A program made the translations under genes and the position numbers. Positions 204 through 32,727 of a stretch of DNA of 47,801 bases are shown here, one piece after another; positions within the stretch are counted from its first letter, which is position 1; every line of letters begins with the position of its first letter. Source of the DNA: Candidatus Endomicrobiellum siamense. Lineage in GTDB: Bacteria > Elusimicrobiota > Endomicrobiia > Endomicrobiales > Endomicrobiaceae. The stretch is taken from assembly GCA_031268145.1 (NCBI GenBank), contig JAIRXS010000028.1, forward strand, positions 1 through 47,801. Reading direction: 5' to 3'. The notes under the pieces were generated by a model. The model was not told the origin of the DNA and ran no database searches. It saw nothing but the letters and a program-made list of their open reading frames with translations.

Positions 204-1499
204 TTACAAAAACATTGCCATATATAAAGGGATATAATCTATTTTATCAGAAGATGATATGTTTTTTGAAGAAAGTTTTATAGCGCGCTGCACATTATAA
301 TTATTTAGTATACTTACGACAGATTTTGATTTCGTATTATCTGCAGACTTAACGTCAATAGCAACAGCAATTTTGTTTACACGAATAAAAAAATCAATTT
401 CCAAATGTGATTTTTTTTCAAAATAATATAGATTTTTACCTAATTTCGTAAAAATATCAGCAATAATATTTTCATAAATAGCGCCTTTATATATTCCAAG
501 ATTCCCATCAATGATATCAGCTTGAACATTTTCTCCAAGCATAGACATAAGAAGACCGGTATCACGCATATAAACTTTAAAAATATCGTTTGAAGAATTC
601 CCTTCAAAAGGAATTTCCGGCTTTAAAAGGTTATAACAAAAATTTATGATACCTGCATCGTAAAGCCACATTAAACTATCGGTAAATCTTTTTGCTGTAG
701 CTCCGTGTTCCACAACGCTATATTGAAATTTTTTATAATCCTTAGCAAGTTGTTTTGGTATAGACAAAAAACAAGCTCTAGCTTTTGTTTTTTCAGCGCC
801 GTCTGCATATTTGGCAATATCGTCTAAATAACCTGTTACTATCCCTTTCTGCAGAGACAAAACATTTGCAAAATTTCTGGTTTTTACAAATTCATCGACA
901 ACTCTCGGCATGCCTCCTACAACAATATATTGTTTAAAATATTTCATCATAACTTCGTGACTACTTATTGGAAGTTGTTCTTTTTTATCAAAATAATTCT
1001 TCAAATCCTGTATTGATTTTTCTGAAATACCAATAGCCCATAAAAACTCTTCAAAATCTAAAGAATGCATTTCCAAATACTCAACATAGCCAACAGGAAA
1101 AGATCTTACTTCTTTATAATTTATCCCAAGTAAAGAACCTGAAGCTATAACGTCAAATCTCTTGTCAAGACTAAAAGACTTCAATGCAGTTCTTGCTTGA
1201 GGACAATTTTGAATCTCATCAAGAAATATAACAGTTTTACCAGGAACAAGTTTAACGTTTGGAATACGCAATGACATTTGTTCTATTAAATTATTTACAT
1301 TCAAATCTCCCTGAAATATATCTTTGTACGAAGGATCTATCTCAAAATTGAAGTATACATAATTCTCATAATTCTCTTTAGCAAACTTTTCAATAATAAA
1401 AGTTTTACCTACCTGCCGCGCCCCTTTAATAAGTAAAGCCATTTTGTCTCTTTTATTTTTCCATGCTAGGAGTTGATTTATTATCTTTCTTTTTAACAT
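204..1499 (-). CDS. AAA_14/DUF4143 family ATPase
   Basis: The protein is 431 aa, usual for the family. It has a Walker A motif GARQVGKT at about residues 26-33 and a Walker B VIFLDEIQ at about 90-97. Its C-terminal DUF4143 region contains a PD-(D/E)XK-like pattern (LEIDFFI, then AIDVKS). This family of solitary P-loop ATPases with a degenerate nuclease-like tail has no settled function; DNA or defence-related roles have been suggested. The ATG at 1497-1499 is the natural start. The gene stands alone, with a terminator downstream and the decayed toxin-antitoxin pair upstream. It is the first of four DUF4143-type genes here and differs clearly in sequence from those at 13366 and 28668, so it is not a recent duplicate. 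Confidence 0.85.
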   Translation of the reverse strand: MLKRKIINQLLAWKNKRDKMALLIKGARQVGKTFIIEKFAKENYENYVYFNFEIDPSYKDIFQGDLNVNNLIEQMSLRIPNVKLVPGKTVIFLDEIQNCPQARTALKSFSLDKRFDVIASGSLLGINYKEVRSFPVGYVEYLEMHSLDFEEFLWAIGISEKSIQDLKNYFDKKEQLPISSHEVMMKYFKQYIVVGGMPRVVDEFVKTRNFANVLSLQKGIVTGYLDDIAKYADGAEKTKARACFLSIPKQLAKDYKKFQYSVVEHGATAKRFTDSLMWLYDAGIINFCYNLLKPEIPFEGNSSNDIFKVYMRDTGLLMSMLGENVQADIIDGNLGIYKGAIYENIIADIFTKLGKNLYYFEKKSHLEIDFFIRVNKIAVAIDVKSADNTKSKSVVSILNNYNVQRAIKLSSKNISSSDKIDYIPLYMAMFL

Positions 1500-1690
1500 A
1501 AAATTCCCTCTATTGGCTATTTATAATGGTATTTTAATACAAATTTAACAATAAATCAATTTTTCCTACGAATAATATGGCATGGACTGTGTTTTTTCCT
1601 TAGAATACAATAATATAGATATATATTTTACTTACGAATAATTTAAGTAGCTTGTTTGAACAATTTGTTTACGCATATGTTTACACAATA

Positions 1691-1722
1691 TTGACATAGT
1701 AAATGAATACATGTAGTACATG
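1691..1722 (+). promoter_or_regulatory. Promoter and palindromic operator of the toxin-antitoxin remnant
   Basis: TTGACA at 1691-1696 is a perfect -35 box; 17 bases later TAGTAC at 1714-1719 is a weak -10. The -10 lies inside the perfect palindrome CATGTA-G-TACATG at 1710-1722. YefM/Phd antitoxins are known to autorepress through TGTACA-cored palindromes, and TGTA-G-TACA here differs by one central base. A strong Shine-Dalgarno (AAAGGAGGAG, 1731-1740) follows. Repression by the antitoxin is inference. Confidence 0.55.
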
Positions 1723-1751
1723 ATTGAATAAAAGGAGGAGAGGAATTGAGT

Positions 1752-2001
1752 ATGACAACTATAGGTGTTACAGATTTAAGAAATAATCTGTTTAAAATGT
1801 TAGAAGCGTGTATAAAATATAACGAATCTATCAATGTTAGTACAAAGAATGGCAATAGTAGTTATTATAAGTGAAGAGGAATACAAAGGCTGGAAAGAAA
1901 CTGTAGAACTTTGTGGTATCAGAGGTTTAGAAAAAGAACTTATAAAAGCCAAGAAAGCCCCTAAATCCGATTACACAAAGGTTAATGTTGATGAGTTATG
2001 A
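1752..2001 (+). pseudogene. Frameshifted YefM/Phd-family antitoxin
   Basis: From ATG 1752 the frame reads MTTIGVTDLRNNLFKMLE, a clear YefM/Phd N-terminus, then stops at TGA 1872-1874 after 40 codons. The expected continuation (AIVVIISEEEYKGWKETVEL) runs in the +1 frame from about 1849 to TGA 1999-2001. A small indel near 1845-1860 therefore splits the gene. The final TGA overlaps the toxin start codon, the usual coupling for this module. The short first frame keeps most of the DNA-binding part, so an autorepressing peptide could in principle still be made. Confidence 0.75.
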
Positions 2002-2249
2002 AATCCATTTTCATAAAAGAGTTCTTAAAGATTGGGGGAATATAAAAAAATATTCCATCTTTGTATAGTAAAGCAAAAGCACTTTTAAAATTATTAGAAA
2101 ATAATCCTTATGAAACACCTCCATCTTACGAAAAGTTAGTCGGTAATTTAAAAGGTTTTTATTCTCGCAGATTGAATAAACAACATAGACTTATTTATTT
2201 AGTTGATACTAAAATAAAAATTGTAAGCATATGGACTCATTATGAATAA
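1998..2249 (+). pseudogene. Frameshifted YoeB/Txe (RelE-superfamily) toxin
   Basis: The ATG at 1998-2000 overlaps the antitoxin stop. The protein is spread over three frames: MKSIF, then HKRVLKDWGNIKKYS, then a 62-codon open run from 2061 beginning with a family-typical YSKAKALLKLLENN. The C-terminus keeps the YoeB residues YSRR, HRLIYLV and the terminal THYE motif of the mRNA interferase active region. With at least two indels near the 5' end, a full toxin cannot be made from this sequence. It is a decayed partner of the preceding antitoxin. Confidence 0.75.
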
Positions 2250-2333
2250 AGTCAGACACCTAGTTATTCCTAATTTTGCAGTGACGAGGAATATTTATGA
2301 AATATTTGAATTACCCAAATAAAAATACTTTTT

Positions 2334-3695
2334 TCATGCATTGCGAATCTTTTTAATTATCTGGTTAATTTTTGCGTTAAAGTATGGGTCTTGATTCATT
2401 TTTCCTTTTATTTTGTTACATGCATGCATTACCGTTGAATGGTCCCTGCCACCAAAAGCATCGCCTATAGCATTTGTTGAAAATTCATCGGTTAACGTTC
2501 GCGATAAGTACATAGCTATTTGTCTTGGAAAAGCAACAGCATCTGTTCTACGTTTTGATTTCATGTCTTTAAAGTCAAGATTAAACTCGTCTGCAACAAC
2601 TTGCTGTATATTTTCTATAGTGATACGAGTAGAATCATCTGTTTTAATAATATCGTGGAGTATCTTTTGAACAGAGTCTACTGTTAGAGGCGTACCAGTA
2701 AACAAAGAAAACGCAGTAATTCTAAGCAAAGATCCTTCAAGTTGTCTTATATTAGATTTAATTTGCGAAGCTATGTAAATAACAACCTCATCTGGGATAT
2801 ATATTTTTTCTTCTTCTGCTTTTTTACGCAATATTGCTATTCTTGTCTCTAAATCTGGTGGCTGGATGTCAGTTATAATACCCCACTCAAATCTAGAGAT
2901 TAATCTTTCTTCAACACCTTCAAGCTCTTTAGGAGGTCTATCTGAAGAAACAACAACTTGTTTTTTAGAGGTAAATAAATTATTAAACATGTGAAAAAAT
3001 TCTTCTTGAGAGCTTTCTTTTCCTATCAAAAACTGTATATCATCTATCAATAAACAATCTAAACCTCTATACTTATTTTTAAAAGTTGAAACTTTATCAA
3101 ATCTTATAGACTCTATAAACTCTGTGACAAACTTTTCACAAGTTACGTACATTACTTTTGAGGTTGAGGTTGACTGTTTTATATAATTACCTATAGAATG
3201 CAATAAGTGAGTCTTACCTAACCCCACTCCACTATACATAAATAATGGATTAAATTGTTTACCTGGATTTTTTGCTACTGCTTCACAACAGCCATGCGCA
3301 AACCTGTTTGAGGCACCTACAACAAACCCTGGAAAAATATATTTAGGGTTTATATTATCCTTTTGTGCAGTCGTAGCCTGAGCTGGGACTTCTACATCTA
3401 TGTGTTCTGGTGTTTCTTCAGCTTTTCTTATTGCTTGGGACAAATCTTGCTGTGGTTTAAATTTTAATGTTATAGTATTGCCATACTCTAAAGACATTAT
3501 CTGTTCTATATTTTTCTGTTGATTTTTTACTATCCATTGAGAAAAGTAAACATTTGGAACCTCTAAAGTAAAAATATTATTTTCTAAAGAAACAGGTTTT
3601 AGTGGAACTATCCATAAATTATACGTTTCTGGAGTAACAGATGATTTAATGTTATCCACAACCTTTTCCCATATACTAATTACTGAATTACTCAT
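2334..3695 (-). CDS. dnaA: Chromosomal replication initiator DnaA
   Basis: At 453 aa this is full length. Domain I covers about residues 1-75, followed by a short linker. The AAA+ domain starts near 115 (NPKYIFPGFVVGASNRFAH), with Walker A SGVGLGKT at 155-162 and Walker B LLIDDIQF at about 215-222. Domain IV carries the DNA-binding signature GGRDHSTVMHA near the C-terminus. DnaA binds DnaA boxes and opens the origin. The ATG at 3693-3695 has a GGGGAG Shine-Dalgarno on the minus strand. The gene is transcribed away from dnaN, with rsmA upstream on the same strand. Two convergent DnaA boxes sit 13-32 bases upstream of the start, which suggests autoregulation. Confidence 0.97.
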   Translation of the reverse strand: MSNSVISIWEKVVDNIKSSVTPETYNLWIVPLKPVSLENNIFTLEVPNVYFSQWIVKNQQKNIEQIMSLEYGNTITLKFKPQQDLSQAIRKAEETPEHIDVEVPAQATTAQKDNINPKYIFPGFVVGASNRFAHGCCEAVAKNPGKQFNPLFMYSGVGLGKTHLLHSIGNYIKQSTSTSKVMYVTCEKFVTEFIESIRFDKVSTFKNKYRGLDCLLIDDIQFLIGKESSQEEFFHMFNNLFTSKKQVVVSSDRPPKELEGVEERLISRFEWGIITDIQPPDLETRIAILRKKAEEEKIYIPDEVVIYIASQIKSNIRQLEGSLLRITAFSLFTGTPLTVDSVQKILHDIIKTDDSTRITIENIQQVVADEFNLDFKDMKSKRRTDAVAFPRQIAMYLSRTLTDEFSTNAIGDAFGGRDHSTVMHACNKIKGKMNQDPYFNAKINQIIKKIRNA

Positions 3696-3727
3696 ATTCT
3701 CCCCAAATTATCCACAAGTGTGGACAA
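3652..3727. promoter_or_regulatory. DnaA-box cluster at the dnaA 5' end
   Basis: TTATCCACA occurs at 3652-3660, inside the start of dnaA, and at 3708-3716. TTGTCCACA, one mismatch, lies on the opposite strand at 3719-3727. The last two form a near-perfect palindrome, TTATCCACAAGTGTGGACAA, between dnaA and rsmA. Another TTATCCACA is at 3880-3888 inside rsmA. Such boxes commonly mediate DnaA autorepression or form part of a bipartite origin. Confidence 0.75.
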
Positions 3728-3779
3728 GTTATTAACAATATCTATTTTTTGATTTTAAAAACATCTAAAAACCACTCTA

Positions 3780-4562
3780 TTACTCTCGGAGAATTGTATA
3801 CTTTTTAATCTCTGTTGTCAAACTTAGAAAATCTGAAATTTCAAGTTTATCAGGCCTTAAAAGAGGAAAAATTTTTAAGTTATCCACAATTGCAAGACTC
3901 TGTGTTTTATCTAAGCTTTTAAATGATGACAGTGCATTTAAAATTGTTTTTCTGCGCATACTAAAAGCATGCTTTACAAACTCAAAAAAAAGTGGGTCTG
4001 GTTTTTCAGGTCTTTTGTTTTTAAGTTTTATAACTGAAGATATCACTTTTGGTCTAGGTTTAAAACATTTTGGAGAAACATCAAAAAGTACCTGGCTTTG
4101 GGCATAATAAGATGTAAATATTGAAATATATCCATAATCTTTACCCCCAGACTTTGCTGTTAAACGCGACACGAGCTCCTTTTGTAACATAAAAACAGCT
4201 TCTGACCAATTATATAACGGTAACACTTTTTGAATTATTGCCGTGCCAACATTATAAGGCAAGTTAGAAATAAATTTTATGATATCCTGTGTTTGCAAGT
4301 TGTATCTGAGAAAGTCTTCATTAATAATTTTAACATTTTTTATATTATTAAAAGAAAAGTAGCTAGCTAACTCTCTTACTAACGACGAATCTATATCCAC
4401 GCAAGTAAGAAACTTAGCTTTTGGATGTATAAGTTTAGTTAAAATACCTTTACCTGGCCCTATTTCTAAAACATTATCAGTTATTTTTAAATTCAATGAC
4501 TTTACAATATTGTTTGCAATATTATTATCAATTAAAAAGTTTTGACCATATTTTTGTCTCAT
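3780..4562 (-). CDS. rsmA: 16S rRNA dimethyladenosine transferase RsmA (KsgA)
   Basis: RsmA transfers methyl groups from SAM to two adjacent adenosines near the 3' end of 16S rRNA. The protein from ATG 4562 starts MRQKYGQNFLID, the family's N-terminal signature. It then has the SAM motif LEIGPGKGILT and the catalytic NLPYN motif. About 260 aa fits the family. The frame stays open to a TTG at 4598, which would add 12 residues, but those have no family counterpart. Neither start has a clear Shine-Dalgarno. It lies 84 bases upstream of dnaA on the same strand, probably cotranscribed, and diverges from dnaN across the origin region. Confidence 0.93.
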   Translation of the reverse strand: MRQKYGQNFLIDNNIANNIVKSLNLKITDNVLEIGPGKGILTKLIHPKAKFLTCVDIDSSLVRELASYFSFNNIKNVKIINEDFLRYNLQTQDIIKFISNLPYNVGTAIIQKVLPLYNWSEAVFMLQKELVSRLTAKSGGKDYGYISIFTSYYAQSQVLFDVSPKCFKPRPKVISSVIKLKNKRPEKPDPLFFEFVKHAFSMRRKTILNALSSFKSLDKTQSLAIVDNLKIFPLLRPDKLEISDFLSLTTEIKKYTILRE

Positions 4563-4598
4563 TTTAATATTATTACATATTATTAAAATATTAAACAA

Positions 4599-4834
4599 CT
4601 TAACTCTAGCGTTTCTCTAATAAAGCTGTGAATAACTTTAAAAAATTTGTATAATTAATTTACTTGATAAAACTGTGAATAACTTTTAAACTTTATGAAC
4701 ATAGTTATCACTGATAAATTTTTTTAATTTTTATTGATAATTATAGCTTTTTGAACTGTCATTTATGTTATCAACAATATACTAAGCATTACTATTACTA
4801 TATTAAGTTTTTTTTAGAAACCATGGAGGAATAA
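4599..4834. other. oriC: Candidate replication origin (oriC) between rsmA and dnaN
   Basis: This noncoding, very AT-rich gap separates the divergent rsmA-dnaA and dnaN-gyrB-gyrA units. It holds two perfect TTATTCACA boxes on the minus strand, at 4627-4635 and 4674-4682. They lie 47 bases apart inside a repeated context (AACTGTGAATAACTTTTAAA-like). A near-match TTATCAACA is at 4768-4776. A stretch almost free of G/C at about 4718-4747 could be the unwinding element. Next to dnaN, TTACTATTACTA at 4789-4800 resembles DnaA-trio repeats. Origin function is inferred from box content and gene context. Confidence 0.7.
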
Positions 4835-5953
4835 ATGAAGGTAATTTGTGGAAAAGATGAATTAATGAAGGGATTACAAATAGTTTCCCCTGTAGCATCA
4901 TCTAAAAACACGCTTCCTGTATTATCTAACATCTTGTTTGAGACAAACACAGACAAGATAAAGCTTTCTTCAACAGATTTAGAAACAGCAGTACAATGCT
5001 ATATTAAAGGGGAAATCGTAGAAGAAGGAGCAATAACAATACCAGCAAAAAGGTTTGCCGACATTATAAAAGAACTTTCTTCTGACCAAACCATAGAAAT
5101 AACGGCAGATGACACAAACCAAATAAACGTTATATCAGGGAAATCCAGGTTCAATTTAATGGGAATATCTCAAAAAGAGTATCCTATAATACCAGAATTT
5201 CCTAAAGACAACAATATAATTATAAAAAAAGATATTCTTACAACTATGATTAAAAAAACTATCTTTGCAGTATCCAAAGACGCTCAAAGATATATTCTAA
5301 ACGGTATTTACGTTATAATAGAACGTAATAACTTAAAAATGGTATCTACTGATGGCAGAAGACTTGCGTATATAGAAGACAATATACAAACTAACATAAA
5401 AGGCAAAGCCATAGTGCCATTTAAAGCCATGGCAGATATTTTAAGACTTTTAATATCAGAAGTCAACTCAGAAACGATAAAATTAGGATTAACAAATAAT
5501 CAGATAGCTTTGGATATGGATGGCATTACTTTTTTATCTACCTTGATAGAAGGCGCTTTTCCAAGTTATGAACAAGTTATACCAAAAACCAATGAATCTA
5601 AAGCAAAGTTGAATGTCAAAAATACTTTAGCAGCAGTGAAACAAATGGCTTTACTTACTGCAGATAAGGTGTCTTCAGATAGATCTGCCGCAGTAAAATT
5701 TTATTTTAGCTCAAATAACTTAAAAATTTCAGTTTCAACTGCTGGAGTAGGGTCTGGTGAAGTTGAATTAGAAATTAAATACACAGGAGAACCTACTGAA
5801 ATAAACTTCAATCCTAATTTTATCAAAGATGTTCTACAAAACATAGATGAAGAGTTTGCTATTTTGGAATTTAAAAATGCTTTAAATCCTACAAAAATTT
5901 CGCCCGAAAATGCCAAAAACTATTTATGTGTTGTTATGCCTATGAGAATATAG
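4835..5953 (+). CDS. dnaN: DNA polymerase III beta sliding clamp
   Basis: The 372-aa protein has the three-repeat clamp fold length. It begins MKVICGKDELMKGLQIVSPV and contains the usual SSTDLETA element; it ends with the clamp signature VVMPMRI, which contributes to the partner-binding pocket. The clamp encircles DNA and tethers the polymerase. A GGAGG Shine-Dalgarno lies 8-12 bases before the ATG. It opens the rightward origin-proximal unit, followed after 4 bases by the DUF721 gene and then by gyrB and gyrA. Confidence 0.97.
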   Translation: MKVICGKDELMKGLQIVSPVASSKNTLPVLSNILFETNTDKIKLSSTDLETAVQCYIKGEIVEEGAITIPAKRFADIIKELSSDQTIEITADDTNQINVISGKSRFNLMGISQKEYPIIPEFPKDNNIIIKKDILTTMIKKTIFAVSKDAQRYILNGIYVIIERNNLKMVSTDGRRLAYIEDNIQTNIKGKAIVPFKAMADILRLLISEVNSETIKLGLTNNQIALDMDGITFLSTLIEGAFPSYEQVIPKTNESKAKLNVKNTLAAVKQMALLTADKVSSDRSAAVKFYFSSNNLKISVSTAGVGSGEVELEIKYTGEPTEINFNPNFIKDVLQNIDEEFAILEFKNALNPTKISPENAKNYLCVVMPMRI

Positions 5954-5957
5954 TTTT

Positions 5958-6230
5958 ATGTCTTTGGTGCAAGCTAGCGATATTATTAATTTGCTAAAAA
6001 AAAAACTTGGTCTTGATGACGAATTTTTTACTATAACTAAAGTATGGCATAAAGAAGTTGGCATAGACGGTTTAGATATAGTAAGCTACAGAAACGGTAT
6101 AATATTTGCTCAAACACAAAGTTCTGTGGCAAGCTTTGAGTTTAATTTGCGTAAAAAAGAAATAATTAAGAAATTAAACCAATACGTCGGTAAAGTTGTG
6201 GTAAAAAATATTAAAGTAAAAATAGAGTGA
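5958..6230 (+). CDS. DUF721 / DciA-like protein
   Basis: This 90-aa protein has the compact DUF721 pattern: an N-terminal helix (ASDIINLLKKKLGL), a central W-K-V-G segment (TKVWHKEVG) and a strand-helix part (GIIFAQTQSSVASFEFNLRKKEIIKKLN). DciA members of this family bind and help load the replicative helicase in bacteria without DnaC/DnaI. It starts 4 bases after dnaN, so translational coupling is likely, and its place between dnaN and gyrB fits a replication role. The assignment rests on size, pattern and context; the helicase role is inference. Confidence 0.75.
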   Translation: MSLVQASDIINLLKKKLGLDDEFFTITKVWHKEVGIDGLDIVSYRNGIIFAQTQSSVASFEFNLRKKEIIKKLNQYVGKVVVKNIKVKIE

Positions 6231-11846: not shown

Positions 11847-11910
11847 ATGCAAAAACTTCCTGTTGATACACAATCGTTTGAAGTATTACGTAATGAGAAC
11901 TCAATATATA
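11847..11910 (+). pseudogene. 5' stub of a PD-(D/E)XK AAA ATPase gene
   Basis: The ATG at 11847 starts MQKLPVDTQSFEVLRNENSIY, matching the N-terminus of the intact gene at 31156 (MKNLPVGTQAFDKLRKAGAVY). The leader before it (TATAATAGAAT, then TTAAGGATTTGTTTATG) is also shared. Homology ends at about 11905, where the sequence passes directly into the 3' part of a similar gene on the opposite strand. Only about 21 codons remain, so this is a remnant of one gene copy. Confidence 0.75.
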
Positions 11911-12819
11911 AGATCAACATCTATCCTTCCCTTGTTTGTATGCACTTCTCCTTCTACTTCAAAACCTGCTAATCTGCATGTCAATAAAAATAGTGAGTGA
12001 TAATATGCCTCTTTTGTTATATGTAAATCATATGGAATACTTGCATACAACTCTGTTAAATTATCAGTTAACTTCTCTGCGTCTTTGCTTATTATTGATC
12101 CGTAAAGCTTATCATTTAAAGTATATACAGCTTGTATAGTCTTATCTGTATATACTTTTATCAAATTTGTTAAAAAAGCATCTTTTACTTCAAAGTTTGG
12201 AAAGTCTAGAGTGTATAAAGATCCTCTTTCTGTTATTTCTTCAGATTCTGCAGTGACTTCTATATATTCTTTAAAACTGTTTTCAAGCTCTTGCTGAGTA
12301 TAGCCGCAGATAGAAATTATGAAGTATTTTTTTTATTCTTTTATATATCTCTTCATCGTTTAGATTGTCGATCAAAGGTTTATCATACTCGTCTATTAAT
12401 ACAACCACTTGTTGACTTGTACTTTCATGCAACTTCTCTATTAGTTCAGAAAACTTAACACTTATAAGTCGTGTTGTAGTTTTCTCAAGAGTAATATTTT
12501 CTCTTGTAGCAATGTCATCTAAAAACTTATCAAGAGAAACTTCTAATTGATCGACTGTTTGATAATGAATAACAGGATATTTATTAGACCAATTCCATTT
12601 GTTGTAGATATAAAGGTCTTTAAAAAGATCTTTATTAGCATTAAATAATTCTTTAAAAGTACTAATAAGTAAAGATTTACCAAATCTTCTTGGACGAGAA
12701 AAGAAATAAACAGATCCGTTATTTATCAAGTTGTATATATGCTCTGTTTTATCTATATAAACAGCGTCAGCATTTCGTAACTTATCAAATGCTTGAGTAC
12801 CAAGAGGTAACTTTTGCAT
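11901..12819 (-). pseudogene. Decayed PD-(D/E)XK AAA ATPase gene (truncated, internally deleted)
   Basis: From ATG 12819 it reads MQKLPLGTQAFDKLRNADAVY with Walker-A-like RPRRFGKS and Walker B VVVLIDEYDKP, closely matching the intact copy at 31156. After HNFY (about 12320) a deletion removes roughly 60 codons and shifts frame into ISICGYTQQELE. A second, in-frame deletion joins AESEEITE to RGSLYTLDFPNFEVKDAF. The rest runs through SIPYDLHITKEAYYHSLFLL to HTNKGRIDVDLIY and stops, losing the EIK half of the nuclease-like motif. The 3' end abuts the head-to-head 5' stub of another copy. It keeps the common leader upstream (12820-12870). Confidence 0.85.
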
Positions 12820-13365: not shown

Positions 13366-14577
13366 TTATAATTCTCCGCCCCAGCGGTATTTAGAAAACT
13401 TCTCCGTGGTAAGCCTGCCGATAATATAAAAATTTTTGATATTAAGATGTGCTGCTCGCCGTTCTAACATGGCCAAATCAGCAGCTGTAGGGGTTTCTTT
13501 TGCCTCTATTGCTACGGATTTTGAAGTTTTATCGCCGATTGAGGAACGTAAGATAAAATCAATTTCACTGTGTTTGTTTTCGTGGTAACTAATACGCTGG
13601 CCATAATGCAAAAGTTGTGCAGCCACAGTGTTTTCAAATTTTTGTCCACTGCTTAAATCCGCATTAATATGTGCTATTCCTGTATCAATAAAATACAGCT
13701 TTTTGCTTTTACGGATTTTAACATCCTGCGAGCCGGACTCTACAGACAAAGTATGGATAAGATATGTTTGCTCCAAAAACTCAATGTAATTGTCAACCGT
13801 TTGGCGGCTTAGTCCCGTGATAGATGACAACTCGCTTGTGTTAATACGGTTGCCGACACGCACGGCAAGCAGAGAAACCAAATTGCGCAAATCCGATATT
13901 TGTTTAAAATCGGATAAATTCTTAACATCTTGATTGATATAAGAGCTATAAATATCGCTTAAAATCTGTTTTTTTTCTTTGGCAGAATTTGCCAGCGCAA
14001 CAGCAGGGAAACCGCCAAAATTGACATATTCTTGATAGTAATCGCTTAGCAAATCATACAAAGCCGAGTTAATTTTTGACGGTGGATTATAGATTTTAAT
14101 ATCGGGCATTACAGCTGAAGATTGCTTGAACAAAAGAAACTCCGAAAAAGAAAGCGGCAAGAGTTGAAACAATACTTTGCGTCCTGATAAGCTTTCTGTA
14201 AAATAGTTTTTTAAATAATATGAACTTGAACCGGTCAAAATAAATTTTATGCCGTAATGATCGTAAAGATATTTGACAACGCTTGGGATATTTTTGACAT
14301 ATTGAATTTCGTCTAATGCCAAATAAACTTTTTCATTGAAATTCAGTCCTCGTATTTTAAGGTCTGTAATTACGTCGTTATAGTTTTCTCTCTCAAAAAT
14401 TTTGCGGTCAATAATATTTTCAAGGTCAAGGAACAGCTTATTTTCGTCGTGTATTTTAGACAACAAATGTTTAAGCGTAGTGGTTTTACCCACACGGCGC
14501 GGGCCGGTGATAACAATTACCTCTTTTTTTGAAAGTTCTTTTTCAATGTTTTGCCATATTGCGCGGGTATACTGCAT
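13366..14577 (-). CDS. AAA_14/DUF4143 family ATPase
   Basis: The 403-aa protein has Walker A GPRRVGKT at about residues 25-32 and Walker B YLALDEIQY near 85-95. The sensor-like FILTGSSSYYL follows, then a winged-helix-like part (NTSELSSITGLSRQTVDNYIEFLEQ). The DUF4143 tail has a PD-(D/E)XK-like SEIDFIL...VAIEAKE. The gene is complete and alone, flanked by the IS256-type remnant and an inverted-repeat element. Its DNA has more G/C-ending codons and GC-rich patches (around 14490-14512) than neighbouring genes, which suggests recent transfer from another genome. Cellular function is unknown; the nearest relative here by domain plan is the gene at 28668. Confidence 0.87.
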   Translation of the reverse strand: MQYTRAIWQNIEKELSKKEVIVITGPRRVGKTTTLKHLLSKIHDENKLFLDLENIIDRKIFERENYNDVITDLKIRGLNFNEKVYLALDEIQYVKNIPSVVKYLYDHYGIKFILTGSSSYYLKNYFTESLSGRKVLFQLLPLSFSEFLLFKQSSAVMPDIKIYNPPSKINSALYDLLSDYYQEYVNFGGFPAVALANSAKEKKQILSDIYSSYINQDVKNLSDFKQISDLRNLVSLLAVRVGNRINTSELSSITGLSRQTVDNYIEFLEQTYLIHTLSVESGSQDVKIRKSKKLYFIDTGIAHINADLSSGQKFENTVAAQLLHYGQRISYHENKHSEIDFILRSSIGDKTSKSVAIEAKETPTAADLAMLERRAAHLNIKNFYIIGRLTTEKFSKYRWGGEL

Positions 14578-28667: not shown

Positions 28668-29882
28668 GTGTATTACAAAAGAACTCTTTCGAAAATTATT
28701 AAGAACGTATCTTCCACATTTCCAGCAGTGCTTATGAATGGGCCTCGCCAAGTGGGCAAAACAACACTTTTTGAGCATTTGATAAATGACAAAAGAACTT
28801 ATGTTTCACTTGATGATCCTCGTGTTAGAGCTATTGCAAAAAGTGATCCTGCGTTATTCTTTAAAACATATGTTCCTCCCATTTTAATAGATGAGGTACA
28901 ATATGCACCAGAGCTATTTCCTTATATAAAGATGATCATAGATAAAGAAAAAAAGAACGGTTTGTTTTGGTTAACAGGCTCACAGATGTTTTATTTAATG
29001 AAAAATATTACAGAGAGTTTAGCTGGACGAGTTGCACTATTAAATTTACAAGGATTATCTCAAAGAGAGAAAAAAAAAGAACTTATTTGTTCACCATTTT
29101 TGCCTTCTTTTAAACTTAACAATAAAAAAAATACGCCAACTTTCAATTTAGAGGAAATATATACAATAGTTTGGAAAGGTTCATATCCTCGCTTGATATC
29201 TGAGACTAAAATGAAATGGGAACTTTTTTATGAATCTTATGTAAATACATATATTGAGAAAGATGTTAGAAGTCTTGTTAATATTATACAAGAACATAAT
29301 TTTTTAAAATTTTTAAAAATTGTAGCTGCTAGAACAGGTCAGTTATTAAATTATAATAGTATGGCTAACGATATAGGAATAAGTGTAAATACAGTAAAAT
29401 CTTGGATATCAATTTTAGAAACTTCGGGGTTAATTTTTCTTTTATATCCATATTCAACAAATATTACTTCAAGATTAATAAAAACTCCAAAACTTTATTT
29501 TTTTGATACTGGTCTTGCGTGCTATTTAACTGGATGGGATACTGTAAAAGTTTTGCAAAATGGAGCCATGAACGGATCTATGTTAGAGACATACGTAGTA
29601 TCTGAAATTATAAAAAGCTATTGGCATAATGGTAAAAAGGCGAGATTATATTTTTATAGAGATAAAAATCAAAAAGAAATTGATTTAATTATAGAACAAA
29701 ATAATATACTCTATCCTATTGAAATTAAACGGACAGCTAATCCTACAATAGATGATGTAAAAAATTTTAATACTCTAAAAGCTTTTACAAAAAATGTGGG
29801 AACAGGTGTGGTTATTTGTTTAGTAGATTCACCTCTGCCCATAACGAAAAATGATTTGGCTATACCTTTGACATATATATAG
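28668..29882 (+). CDS. AAA_14/DUF4143 family ATPase inserted between ruvA and ruvB
   Basis: The 404-aa protein starts at GTG 28668, with Shine-Dalgarno GGAGGG at 28655-28660. Walker A is GPRQVGKT (25-32) and Walker B ILIDEVQ (about 72-78). A winged-helix-like segment (NYNSMANDIGISVNTVKSWISILE) is followed by the DUF4143 tail with EIDLIIEQ...PIEIKR, a PD-(D/E)XK-like arrangement. It is complete, and closest in this window to the decayed copy at 14892-15533. It splits what is elsewhere a contiguous ruvCAB set, with a strong hairpin before it and a new promoter after it. Function unknown. Confidence 0.87.
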   Translation: MYYKRTLSKIIKNVSSTFPAVLMNGPRQVGKTTLFEHLINDKRTYVSLDDPRVRAIAKSDPALFFKTYVPPILIDEVQYAPELFPYIKMIIDKEKKNGLFWLTGSQMFYLMKNITESLAGRVALLNLQGLSQREKKKELICSPFLPSFKLNNKKNTPTFNLEEIYTIVWKGSYPRLISETKMKWELFYESYVNTYIEKDVRSLVNIIQEHNFLKFLKIVAARTGQLLNYNSMANDIGISVNTVKSWISILETSGLIFLLYPYSTNITSRLIKTPKLYFFDTGLACYLTGWDTVKVLQNGAMNGSMLETYVVSEIIKSYWHNGKKARLYFYRDKNQKEIDLIIEQNNILYPIEIKRTANPTIDDVKNFNTLKAFTKNVGTGVVICLVDSPLPITKNDLAIPLTYI

Positions 29883-31155: not shown

Positions 31156-32727
31156 ATGAAAAATTTACCTGTTGGTACTCAGGCATTTGATAAGTTGCGA
31201 AAAGCTGGAGCCGTATACGTAGATAAAACAGAACATGTATACAACTTGATAAATAATGGATCTGTTTATTTTCTTTCTCGACCAAGAAGATTTGGTAAAT
31301 CTTTACTTGTTAGTACTTTCAAAGAGTTATTTAAAGCTAATAAAGAACTTTTTAAGAATCTATATATCTACGACAAATGGGATTGGTCTAAACAATATCC
31401 TGTTATTCATTTGGATTTTGCGGAACTTGCATACGATACCCCTGAAAGATTAGAAAACTCTCTTTCTGATTTTATAATAAGAACTGCTATTGAGTATTCT
31501 ATTGAGCTAATATCTTCTGAAATAGAGACTAGGTTTTCTGAACTAATAGAAAAGTTACATAATAGTACAGGTCAACAAGTAGTTGTATTAATAGACGAAT
31601 ACGATAAACCTATGATGGATAGTTTAAACAAAGAAAAAGAAGTGCATCAAGCAATTAAAGAAATTCTTCATAACTTTTATCAAGTAGTAAAAGCTGGAGA
31701 TGCTCATATAAAGTTTATGTTTATGACTGGTGTTTCACGATTTATAGGCCTTTCTGTATTTTCTGCATTAAATAATCTTTACGACATAACAATGGATGCT
31801 GAGTTTTCTTCTATTTGTGGATACACTCAAGAAGAGCTTGAAAGTAATTTTAAAGGACATATAGAAGCAACAGCAGAATCTATGAAAATAAGTAAAGAAG
31901 AGTTATTGTCAAAAATAAAATACTGGTATAATGGATACTCATGGAACAGTAAAATTTCTGTATATAATCCTTTTTCAACACTAGCTTTTTTTAGAAATAA
32001 AGAATTTATAGGTTATTGGTATAAAACAGGAACGCCTATATTTTTAATAGAGCAGATAAAGAAGAAAAACGATATAGATAAACTTACATGTAAGGTGTCA
32101 GTAAGTAGTCAGTTGTTGGAAGGGAATAGTTCTGATTATGGTAATATAGAAAGCGTTACATTATTATTTCAAACAGGATATTTAACAGTAAAGAAGAAGG
32201 AAATAGGCAAAAGGGGTCCAATATATACAATGGACTTCCCGAATTTTGAAGTTAGAGATGCATTCTTAACAAGTTTATTAGGAACATACACACAAAAAAA
32301 TGAAGAAAAAGTACTAGAATTGGGTGATATGATATATGAGGATATAGAAAATAAAAATGGTGAAAGACTGGGAAGAAATTTAGAAGAACTCTTTAGTAAT
32401 ATTCCATACGACTTACATACAAAGAGAGAGTCCTATTATCATTCACTATTTTTGTTAGCAAGTAGGATGAGTGGGTGTGAGGTAGAAGCAGAAGTGCATA
32501 CAGACAAGGGAAGGATAGATGCAGTTTTAAGACATGACAATAGTATAACAATAGTAGAAATTAAGTACGCAAAACAAGTTGACCAGATCAAAGGAAAGAT
32601 GGAAGAAGGATTAAATCAAATCAAAGATACTAAATACTATGAGAAATATACAAATGCAAATGTTAGTTTATTAGTTGTCGTGTTTTGTGAAAATAAAGAT
32701 GTTTCTTGTAAATTTGAGAATATATAA
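31156..32727 (+). CDS. AAA-ATPase-like protein with C-terminal PD-(D/E)XK nuclease domain
   Basis: The 523-aa protein has the AAA-ATPase_like/PDDEXK_9 (DUF1703) architecture. It starts LPVGTQAFDKLRKAGAVYVDKT and has a Walker-A-like RPRRFGKS (42-49) and Walker B VVVLIDEYDKP (about 142-152). The middle holds GVSRFIGLSVFSALNNLYDI and WYNGYSW, and the C-terminal nuclease-like motif reads GRIDAVL...TIVEIKYAKQ (about 454-475). The family is abundant in some gut bacteria and symbionts, and its role is unsettled. The gene has a TATAAT-containing leader shared with two other copies and is flanked by a 50-bp direct repeat of the ruvB-queH junction. It is the only intact member of its family in the window. 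Confidence 0.88.
   Translation: MKNLPVGTQAFDKLRKAGAVYVDKTEHVYNLINNGSVYFLSRPRRFGKSLLVSTFKELFKANKELFKNLYIYDKWDWSKQYPVIHLDFAELAYDTPERLENSLSDFIIRTAIEYSIELISSEIETRFSELIEKLHNSTGQQVVVLIDEYDKPMMDSLNKEKEVHQAIKEILHNFYQVVKAGDAHIKFMFMTGVSRFIGLSVFSALNNLYDITMDAEFSSICGYTQEELESNFKGHIEATAESMKISKEELLSKIKYWYNGYSWNSKISVYNPFSTLAFFRNKEFIGYWYKTGTPIFLIEQIKKKNDIDKLTCKVSVSSQLLEGNSSDYGNIESVTLLFQTGYLTVKKKEIGKRGPIYTMDFPNFEVRDAFLTSLLGTYTQKNEEKVLELGDMIYEDIENKNGERLGRNLEELFSNIPYDLHTKRESYYHSLFLLASRMSGCEVEAEVHTDKGRIDAVLRHDNSITIVEIKYAKQVDQIKGKMEEGLNQIKDTKYYEKYTNANVSLLVVVFCENKDVSCKFENI

Follow-up and report, generated by a model that had tools for sequence, protein, structure and literature searches.

In Bacillus subtilis, the replication origin lies between dnaA and dnaN and contains a basal unwinding system made up of DnaA-boxes 6/7 and DnaA-trios. 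Passages of PMC8287927 give a general rule for such opening modules: a DnaA box with at most two mismatches, a spacer of 0 to 16 bp (13 bp being the commonest), and at least three trios with a fixed middle base. Bipartite origins, which have two box clusters, are found in B. subtilis, H. pylori, and C. difficile (oriC1/oriC2). According to passages of PMC7561715, one cluster of C. difficile lies at the dnaA promoter and the other, with a trio (CACCTACTACTATTACTACTATGA) and AT-rich DNA, lies at dnaN. Endomicrobia belong to the phylum Elusimicrobiota and include symbionts of termite-gut flagellates (abstract of PMC11257099). For Candidatus Endomicrobium trichonymphae, which belongs to the same symbiont group as the genome studied here, dnaA pseudogenization and an atypical GC skew are described in parts of PMC10579323, and parts of PMC4505116 describe initiation pathways that are interrupted in the endosymbiont.

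We analyzed a stretch of 47,801 nucleotides (the window), which is contig C40 of a 1.26-Mb genome split over 47 contigs; the named relatives of this genome are MAGs labeled Candidatus Endomicrobiellum or Endomicrobium. Positions 4620 to 4834 (plus strand) are very probably the chromosome replication origin of this termite-gut bacterium and of the ordinary type that adjoins dnaN. A candidate oriC had been proposed here in a first-pass annotation, and the proposal is supported by a box cluster beyond chance expectation, a block conserved among relatives, a trio-like module, and a switch in GC skew. In addition, dnaA is intact and an AT-rich, easily melted stretch is present, although such stretches are not unique in the window. 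As in B. subtilis, a box, a spacer of ∼12 to 13 bp, and trio-like repeats stand just upstream of dnaN, and the dnaA-oriC-dnaN arrangement is also found in relatives with the standard gene order. Unlike in B. subtilis, dnaA in the window is inverted, rsmA lies between dnaA and the origin, and many relatives have only a few, imperfect trios. The window resembles the bipartite origins in having two conserved box clusters, but in the inverted clade these are separated by rsmA rather than dnaA, and a bipartite function here is putative. It differs from Ca. E. trichonymphae in its intact dnaA frame and inverted order; one relative (G067) resembles that symbiont in having an interrupted dnaA. We hold with high confidence the joint reading of an oriC at 4620 to 4834 that DnaA would open, together with a single in-place inversion of rsmA and dnaA.

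Pfam confirmed the earlier gene calls for rsmA, dnaA, dnaN, gyrB, and gyrA, including the identities of GyrB and GyrA. On the minus strand, dnaA (2334 to 3695) is an intact frame of 453 amino acids with the domains DnaA_N (domain I), Bac_DnaA (AAA+), and Bac_DnaA_C (helix-turn-helix), and rsmA (3780 to 4598), which is inverted together with dnaA, matches RrnaAD (RsmA). On the plus strand, dnaN (4835 to 5953; DNA polymerase III beta) is followed by a DciA-like gene (5958 to 6230), whose match to PF05258 scored 23.6 bits, just under the cut-off of 24. The origin region had been drawn from 4599 to 4834, and the box cluster does lie inside it, but the left edge depends on a TTG start for rsmA. Because the RsmA match in relatives begins at residues 4 to 13 of the TTG-started frame and an ATG occurs at residue 13, the true start of rsmA is probably near 4562 and the intergenic region between rsmA and dnaN probably extends from about 4563 to 4834. 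To the left of dnaA, the window carries a gene for a DUF4143/AAA_14 ATPase (207 to 1499; Pfam); the frames at 13366 to 14577 and 28668 to 29882 look related to it by eye, and this type seems to be repeated in the window. Two short minus-strand frames at 11901 to 12819 resemble, in their translations as compared by eye, the start and end of an intact 523-amino-acid frame (31156 to 32727), and they are probably a decayed copy.

Upstream of dnaN, two perfect DnaA boxes, both TTATTCACA on the minus strand, lie at 4627 to 4635 (box A) and 4674 to 4682 (box B), 47 bp apart from start to start. They are surrounded by a 24-nt repeat (copies at 4620 to 4643 and 4667 to 4690, 92% alike), which confirms the first-pass annotation on the two same-strand boxes and their repeated context. 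Box A reads TTATGCACA in many relatives, and box B lies in conserved alignment. The near-box of that annotation was recovered as well, with TTATGAACA at 4693 to 4701 (box C, plus strand; TTATCAACA in most aligned relatives) and TTATCAACA at 4768 to 4776 (box E, plus strand, one mismatch). Box E is TTATCCACA in the sister loci L031 to L034 and is the platform of the predicted unwinding module. A weak box D (TTATCAATA, 4732 to 4740, minus strand) has two mismatches, and its TTGATAA is conserved in the alignment. Between boxes A and B, a −10-like TATAAT hexamer (4650 to 4655, plus strand) is oriented toward dnaN in conserved columns and may act as a promoter element.

None of 2,000 dinucleotide shuffles of 4599 to 4834 gave two perfect boxes or four relaxed boxes, and the tandem pair TGTGNATAA-N10-40-TGTGNATAA had one match in the whole 1.26-Mb genome, with zero for the controls. 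Across the genome there was no excess of boxes (TTATNCACA, 55 copies versus 69 of the reversed control), and 5 of these 55 copies fall inside 3652 to 4682. The box count of the whole window was also unremarkable (7 versus 2.99 expected, a count reached in 6 of 100 shuffles). The AT-only stretch that had been reported is present, with 22 bp at 4714 to 4735 inside a low-stability stretch, but it is not distinctive by itself and was rejected as such a sign, since the window has 62 AT-only runs of at least 15 bp, the longest being 31 bp. Among non-overlapping stretches of the window, the 200 bp from 4547 rank second in instability, and further stretches equal the dnaN-side block in instability.

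The block of ∼210 bp upstream of dnaN recurs across relatives in both gene orders. When 32 genomes were aligned and the alignment was mapped onto the window, the elements of the block kept the order box A, TTGTATAAT, box B, box C, T-rich stretch, weak box D, box E, CAATATAC, trio-like triplets, and dnaN. Five of 37 genomes were left out of this alignment: L026, which is without the block, and L024, L025, L028, and L030, which belong to other families of the order. In these four, dnaA immediately precedes dnaN, and both genes are on one strand. All 37 genomes were included in the scan for box-spacer-trio modules. A 12-bp spacer (4777 to 4788, plus strand) comes after box E in the window, and its first 9 bp (ATATACTAA) may represent a second, degenerate box with three mismatches. 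Directly after the spacer stands the trio-like repeat TTACTATTACTA (TTA CTA TTA CTA; 4789 to 4800, plus strand), which was found by pattern scan. This combination of TTATCAACA with one mismatch, 12 bp, and TTA CTA TTA CTA agrees with the rule in the passages of PMC8287927. The pattern has five matches in the window, of which only that at 4789 to 4800 has a TTA/CTA run, the others being T-runs. Both box E and its 12-bp spacing are widespread among the relatives, and in many of these only two or three of the four triplets fit (for instance, CTA TTA CAA CTA). In the 37-genome scan, no convincing module at 12-bp spacing was found in L026, L040, L044, and L049, and in L025 and L030 the module does not fit when the spacing must be exactly 12 bp.

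By analogy with B. subtilis, DnaA would bind boxes A, B, C, and E and, starting at box E (perhaps together with the degenerate adjacent box), would extend across the spacer onto the trio-like repeat, and the AT-rich duplex just upstream of dnaN would then open. Helicase loading could follow at the opened duplex, possibly with the neighboring DciA-like protein.

Twenty of 25 named loci have rsmA, dnaA, and dnaN matches, giving 21 loci when the window is included. Fifteen of these have the textbook order rsmA-dnaA-oriC-dnaN, with the three genes on the plus strand, and six (the window and L031 to L035) have dnaA and rsmA on the minus strand and dnaN on the plus strand. In a tree built from DnaN, DnaA, and GyrB of 37 genomes, the six inverted genomes form one clade, sister to L036, which has the standard order. 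The unrooted split support of 100 was used for this clade rather than the 49 in the rooted drawing, because rerooting shifts labels. Thus, the earlier remark that this is not the textbook order is true of the window clade, but among the 21 loci the textbook order is the commoner and probably the ancestral one, and that of the window is probably derived.

The simplest account of the window order is one in-place inversion of about 2.3 kb containing rsmA and dnaA. It would have happened once, in the ancestor of the window clade. On the right, the break would have fallen after the 3′ end of dnaA and just before box A, leaving the whole origin with dnaN; rsmA and dnaA would thereby have come to run in the same direction as the leftward fork. 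In the inverted loci, the spacing between rsmA and dnaA and the promoter region are unchanged. The genes left of rsmA in several standard loci are ones that we take to be rnpA, yidC, jag, and mnmE, and presumptive mnmE (plus strand) still lies left of the flipped pair in the inverted loci L035 and L032. There were no relaxed boxes in 2100 to 2340, the stretch now beside the dnaA end. We consider it very improbable that the order arose by transposition or in several steps. Such a history would fit the distance between dnaA and dnaN in G008, G032, G027, G020, and G028, which implies that the locus moves often, and no convincing inverted repeat surrounds the window breakpoints; against it, the same two genes were flipped as a pair with their mutual order kept, their mnmE neighbor on the left (L035 and L032) and their dnaN neighbor on the right were retained, and the inverted order is confined to a single clade. 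Inverted repeats were rejected as a cause of the inversion, as 1450 to 4900 holds seven pairs, the longest arms being 27 nt at 74%.

Third-position GC skew was higher in the inverted than in the standard loci for dnaA (mean, +0.228 in 6 versus −0.052 in 15) and rsmA (+0.172 versus −0.113). It was also higher for dnaN (+0.105 versus −0.041) and gyrB (+0.220, n = 5, versus +0.039, n = 15), so composition confounds the comparison, which we rejected as a demonstration that the strand had switched. Neither dnaA nor inversion occurs as a word in the main text of PMC11257099, and the passages of PMC11257099, PMC10579323, and PMC4505116 contain no description of an rsmA-dnaA inversion; most subscription journals were outside this coverage.

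The second conserved box cluster lies at the dnaA promoter, at 3652 to 3737. One box is in the first codons of dnaA (TTATCCACA, 3652 to 3660, plus strand; perfect in 15 of the 21 loci and with at most one mismatch in 18), and the others are upstream of the gene at 3708 to 3737: TTATCCACA at 3708 to 3716 (plus strand), TTGTCCACA at 3719 to 3727 (minus strand), and TTATTAACA at 3729 to 3737 (plus strand). Within 90 bp upstream of dnaA, every one of the 21 loci carries two or more boxes that deviate at no more than one base, and a perfect box is present in 18. A putative dnaA promoter, recognized by eye, lies in the 3′ end of rsmA (3793 to 3821, minus strand; TTGACA at 3816 to 3821, 17 bp, TACAAT at 3793 to 3798), and to the eye this TTGACA-17-TACAAT arrangement is similar in other inspected loci. 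Together, the box cluster and the promoter-like sequence suggest that dnaA is autoregulated. The cluster may also form one part of a bipartite origin, its two parts being separated by rsmA rather than by dnaA. Another perfect TTATCCACA occurs within the rsmA coding region at 3880 to 3888.

As far as the data allow, GC skew did not refute the candidate origin. Within the window, skew is below zero up to about 4.6 kb and above zero after that except for a dip at 36 to 39 kb, and the turn from negative to positive falls near 4.6 to 5.3 kb, with a left arm just 4.6 kb long. In an inverted-order sister contig of 110 kb (G059:C20; Ca. E. cryptotermitis, L031), the cumulative skew minimum at 102150 is 13 bp away from the dnaN start at 102163. 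In G062, a member of the genus, rsmA and dnaN occupy corresponding positions on contig C20, and this is probably the same genome as G059. On a 592-kb contig of G064, sampled stretches showed a sign change at about 562 to 573 kb, where dnaN (564 to 565 kb) and dnaA (565 to 567 kb) are located, and again between 90 and 120 kb. In G067, a 1.11-Mb contig that starts from a dnaA fragment, the sampled skew stayed positive for the most part until about 615 kb, with some values close to zero, and was negative between 660 kb and the contig end. In both G064 and G067, the sign of the sampled skew therefore changes around the origin locus. Where dnaA is far from dnaN, the skew minimum was 0.9 kb (G032), 1.6 kb (G027), and 4.9 kb (G008) from dnaN, and in G003, with standard order, it was 7.2 kb left of dnaN. 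The offsets in G008 and G003 are points against the origin reading, as are the short left arm of the window in a genome of 47 contigs, the skew minima of G020 and G028 described below, the imperfect or unconvincing trio modules of the relatives named above, the equally unstable stretches elsewhere in the window, and G067, which keeps a similar block despite its interrupted dnaA.

Two small sister genomes differ in where the skew turns. The minima of G028 (105674, with dnaA at 109142) and G020 (101328, with dnaA at 105848) are 3.5 to 4.5 kb from dnaA and 26 to 28 kb from dnaN, and we therefore rejected the idea that oriC always stays with dnaN. In these genomes the origin may have remained beside dnaA, or the skew of a recent rearrangement may not yet have leveled. 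They also favor a reading in which the duplex opens at the dnaA-promoter cluster and the dnaN-side block serves mainly as a dnaN promoter under DnaA control, as do the retention of that cluster in 21 of 21 loci and the conserved TATAAT in the block. We judge this reading very unlikely. The dnaA contigs of G032 (positive skew over all 40 of 54 kb inspected) and G008 (all 28 kb inspected, where skew merely dips near and beyond dnaA) are without a minimum comparable to that of their dnaN contigs; moreover, trio-like repeats follow only the dnaN-side box, and it is the dnaN-side block that is long and multi-box with its element order kept. For an origin beside dnaN with rsmA and dnaA inverted, an assembly error or strain variant in place of a clade-fixed inversion is extremely unlikely: the window assembly is fragmented, but the inverted order is common to six genomes of one clade, with the rsmA-dnaA spacing and promoter region unchanged and presumptive mnmE in place in two of them.

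Elsewhere in the genus, dnaA has been displaced, has decayed, or gave no match. Four of 59 relatives were without a DnaA match (G005, G016, G030, and G033); G005 is uninformative on block loss because its dnaN and rsmA matches are also absent. In the other three, which are small genomes, the rsmA and dnaN matches are just 28 to 49 bp apart (G016:C2, 301284 to 303273; G030:C2, 25856 to 27794; G033:C47, 9424 to 10813), and the 160 bp preceding dnaN hold no box, even with one mismatch allowed. In all three genomes with rsmA beside dnaN and no dnaA match, the origin block is missing as well, although at a completeness of 63 to 80% (a range that includes G028) dnaA may still be present elsewhere in them. 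Skew was mixed in G030 (76 kb inspected) and G016 (66 kb inspected). In the sisters G028 and G020, dnaN is about 31 kb from dnaA; the ATPase domain is incomplete in the G028 dnaA frame (C2, 109142 to 110311), and the dnaN of G028 is without the block, and the G020 dnaA (C2, 105848 to 107182) matches over residues 4 to 452 and a degenerate block is kept. In G067 (C1, 10 to 7647), the dnaA match falls into two parts separated by about 6.3 kb, and in G009, dnaA and dnaN are on different contigs. Tentatively, and with slightly less belief than doubt, we suggest that the dnaA-oriC locus has been dismantled along several paths within this genus: flipped while the origin remained at dnaN (the window clade), with dnaA displaced from the origin, with dnaA decayed together with the boxes, or with dnaA and the entire origin lost, leaving rsmA next to dnaN.

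The origin of this symbiont lineage is thus placed to within about 200 bp, and its odd gene order can be explained by one inversion, with no need for a new type of origin. Beyond the first-pass annotation, the analysis adds the predicted unwinding module, the second box cluster, a probable cause of the gene order, and a comparative series. If the suggested dismantling is true, the group in which rsmA abuts dnaN would initiate replication without DnaA and without this oriC, and the genus would be a graded natural series of bacterial origin loss. Comparing the relatives with a moved, decayed, or vanished dnaA could reveal which parts of a bacterial origin are essential and in what sequence they disappear when DnaA is lost.
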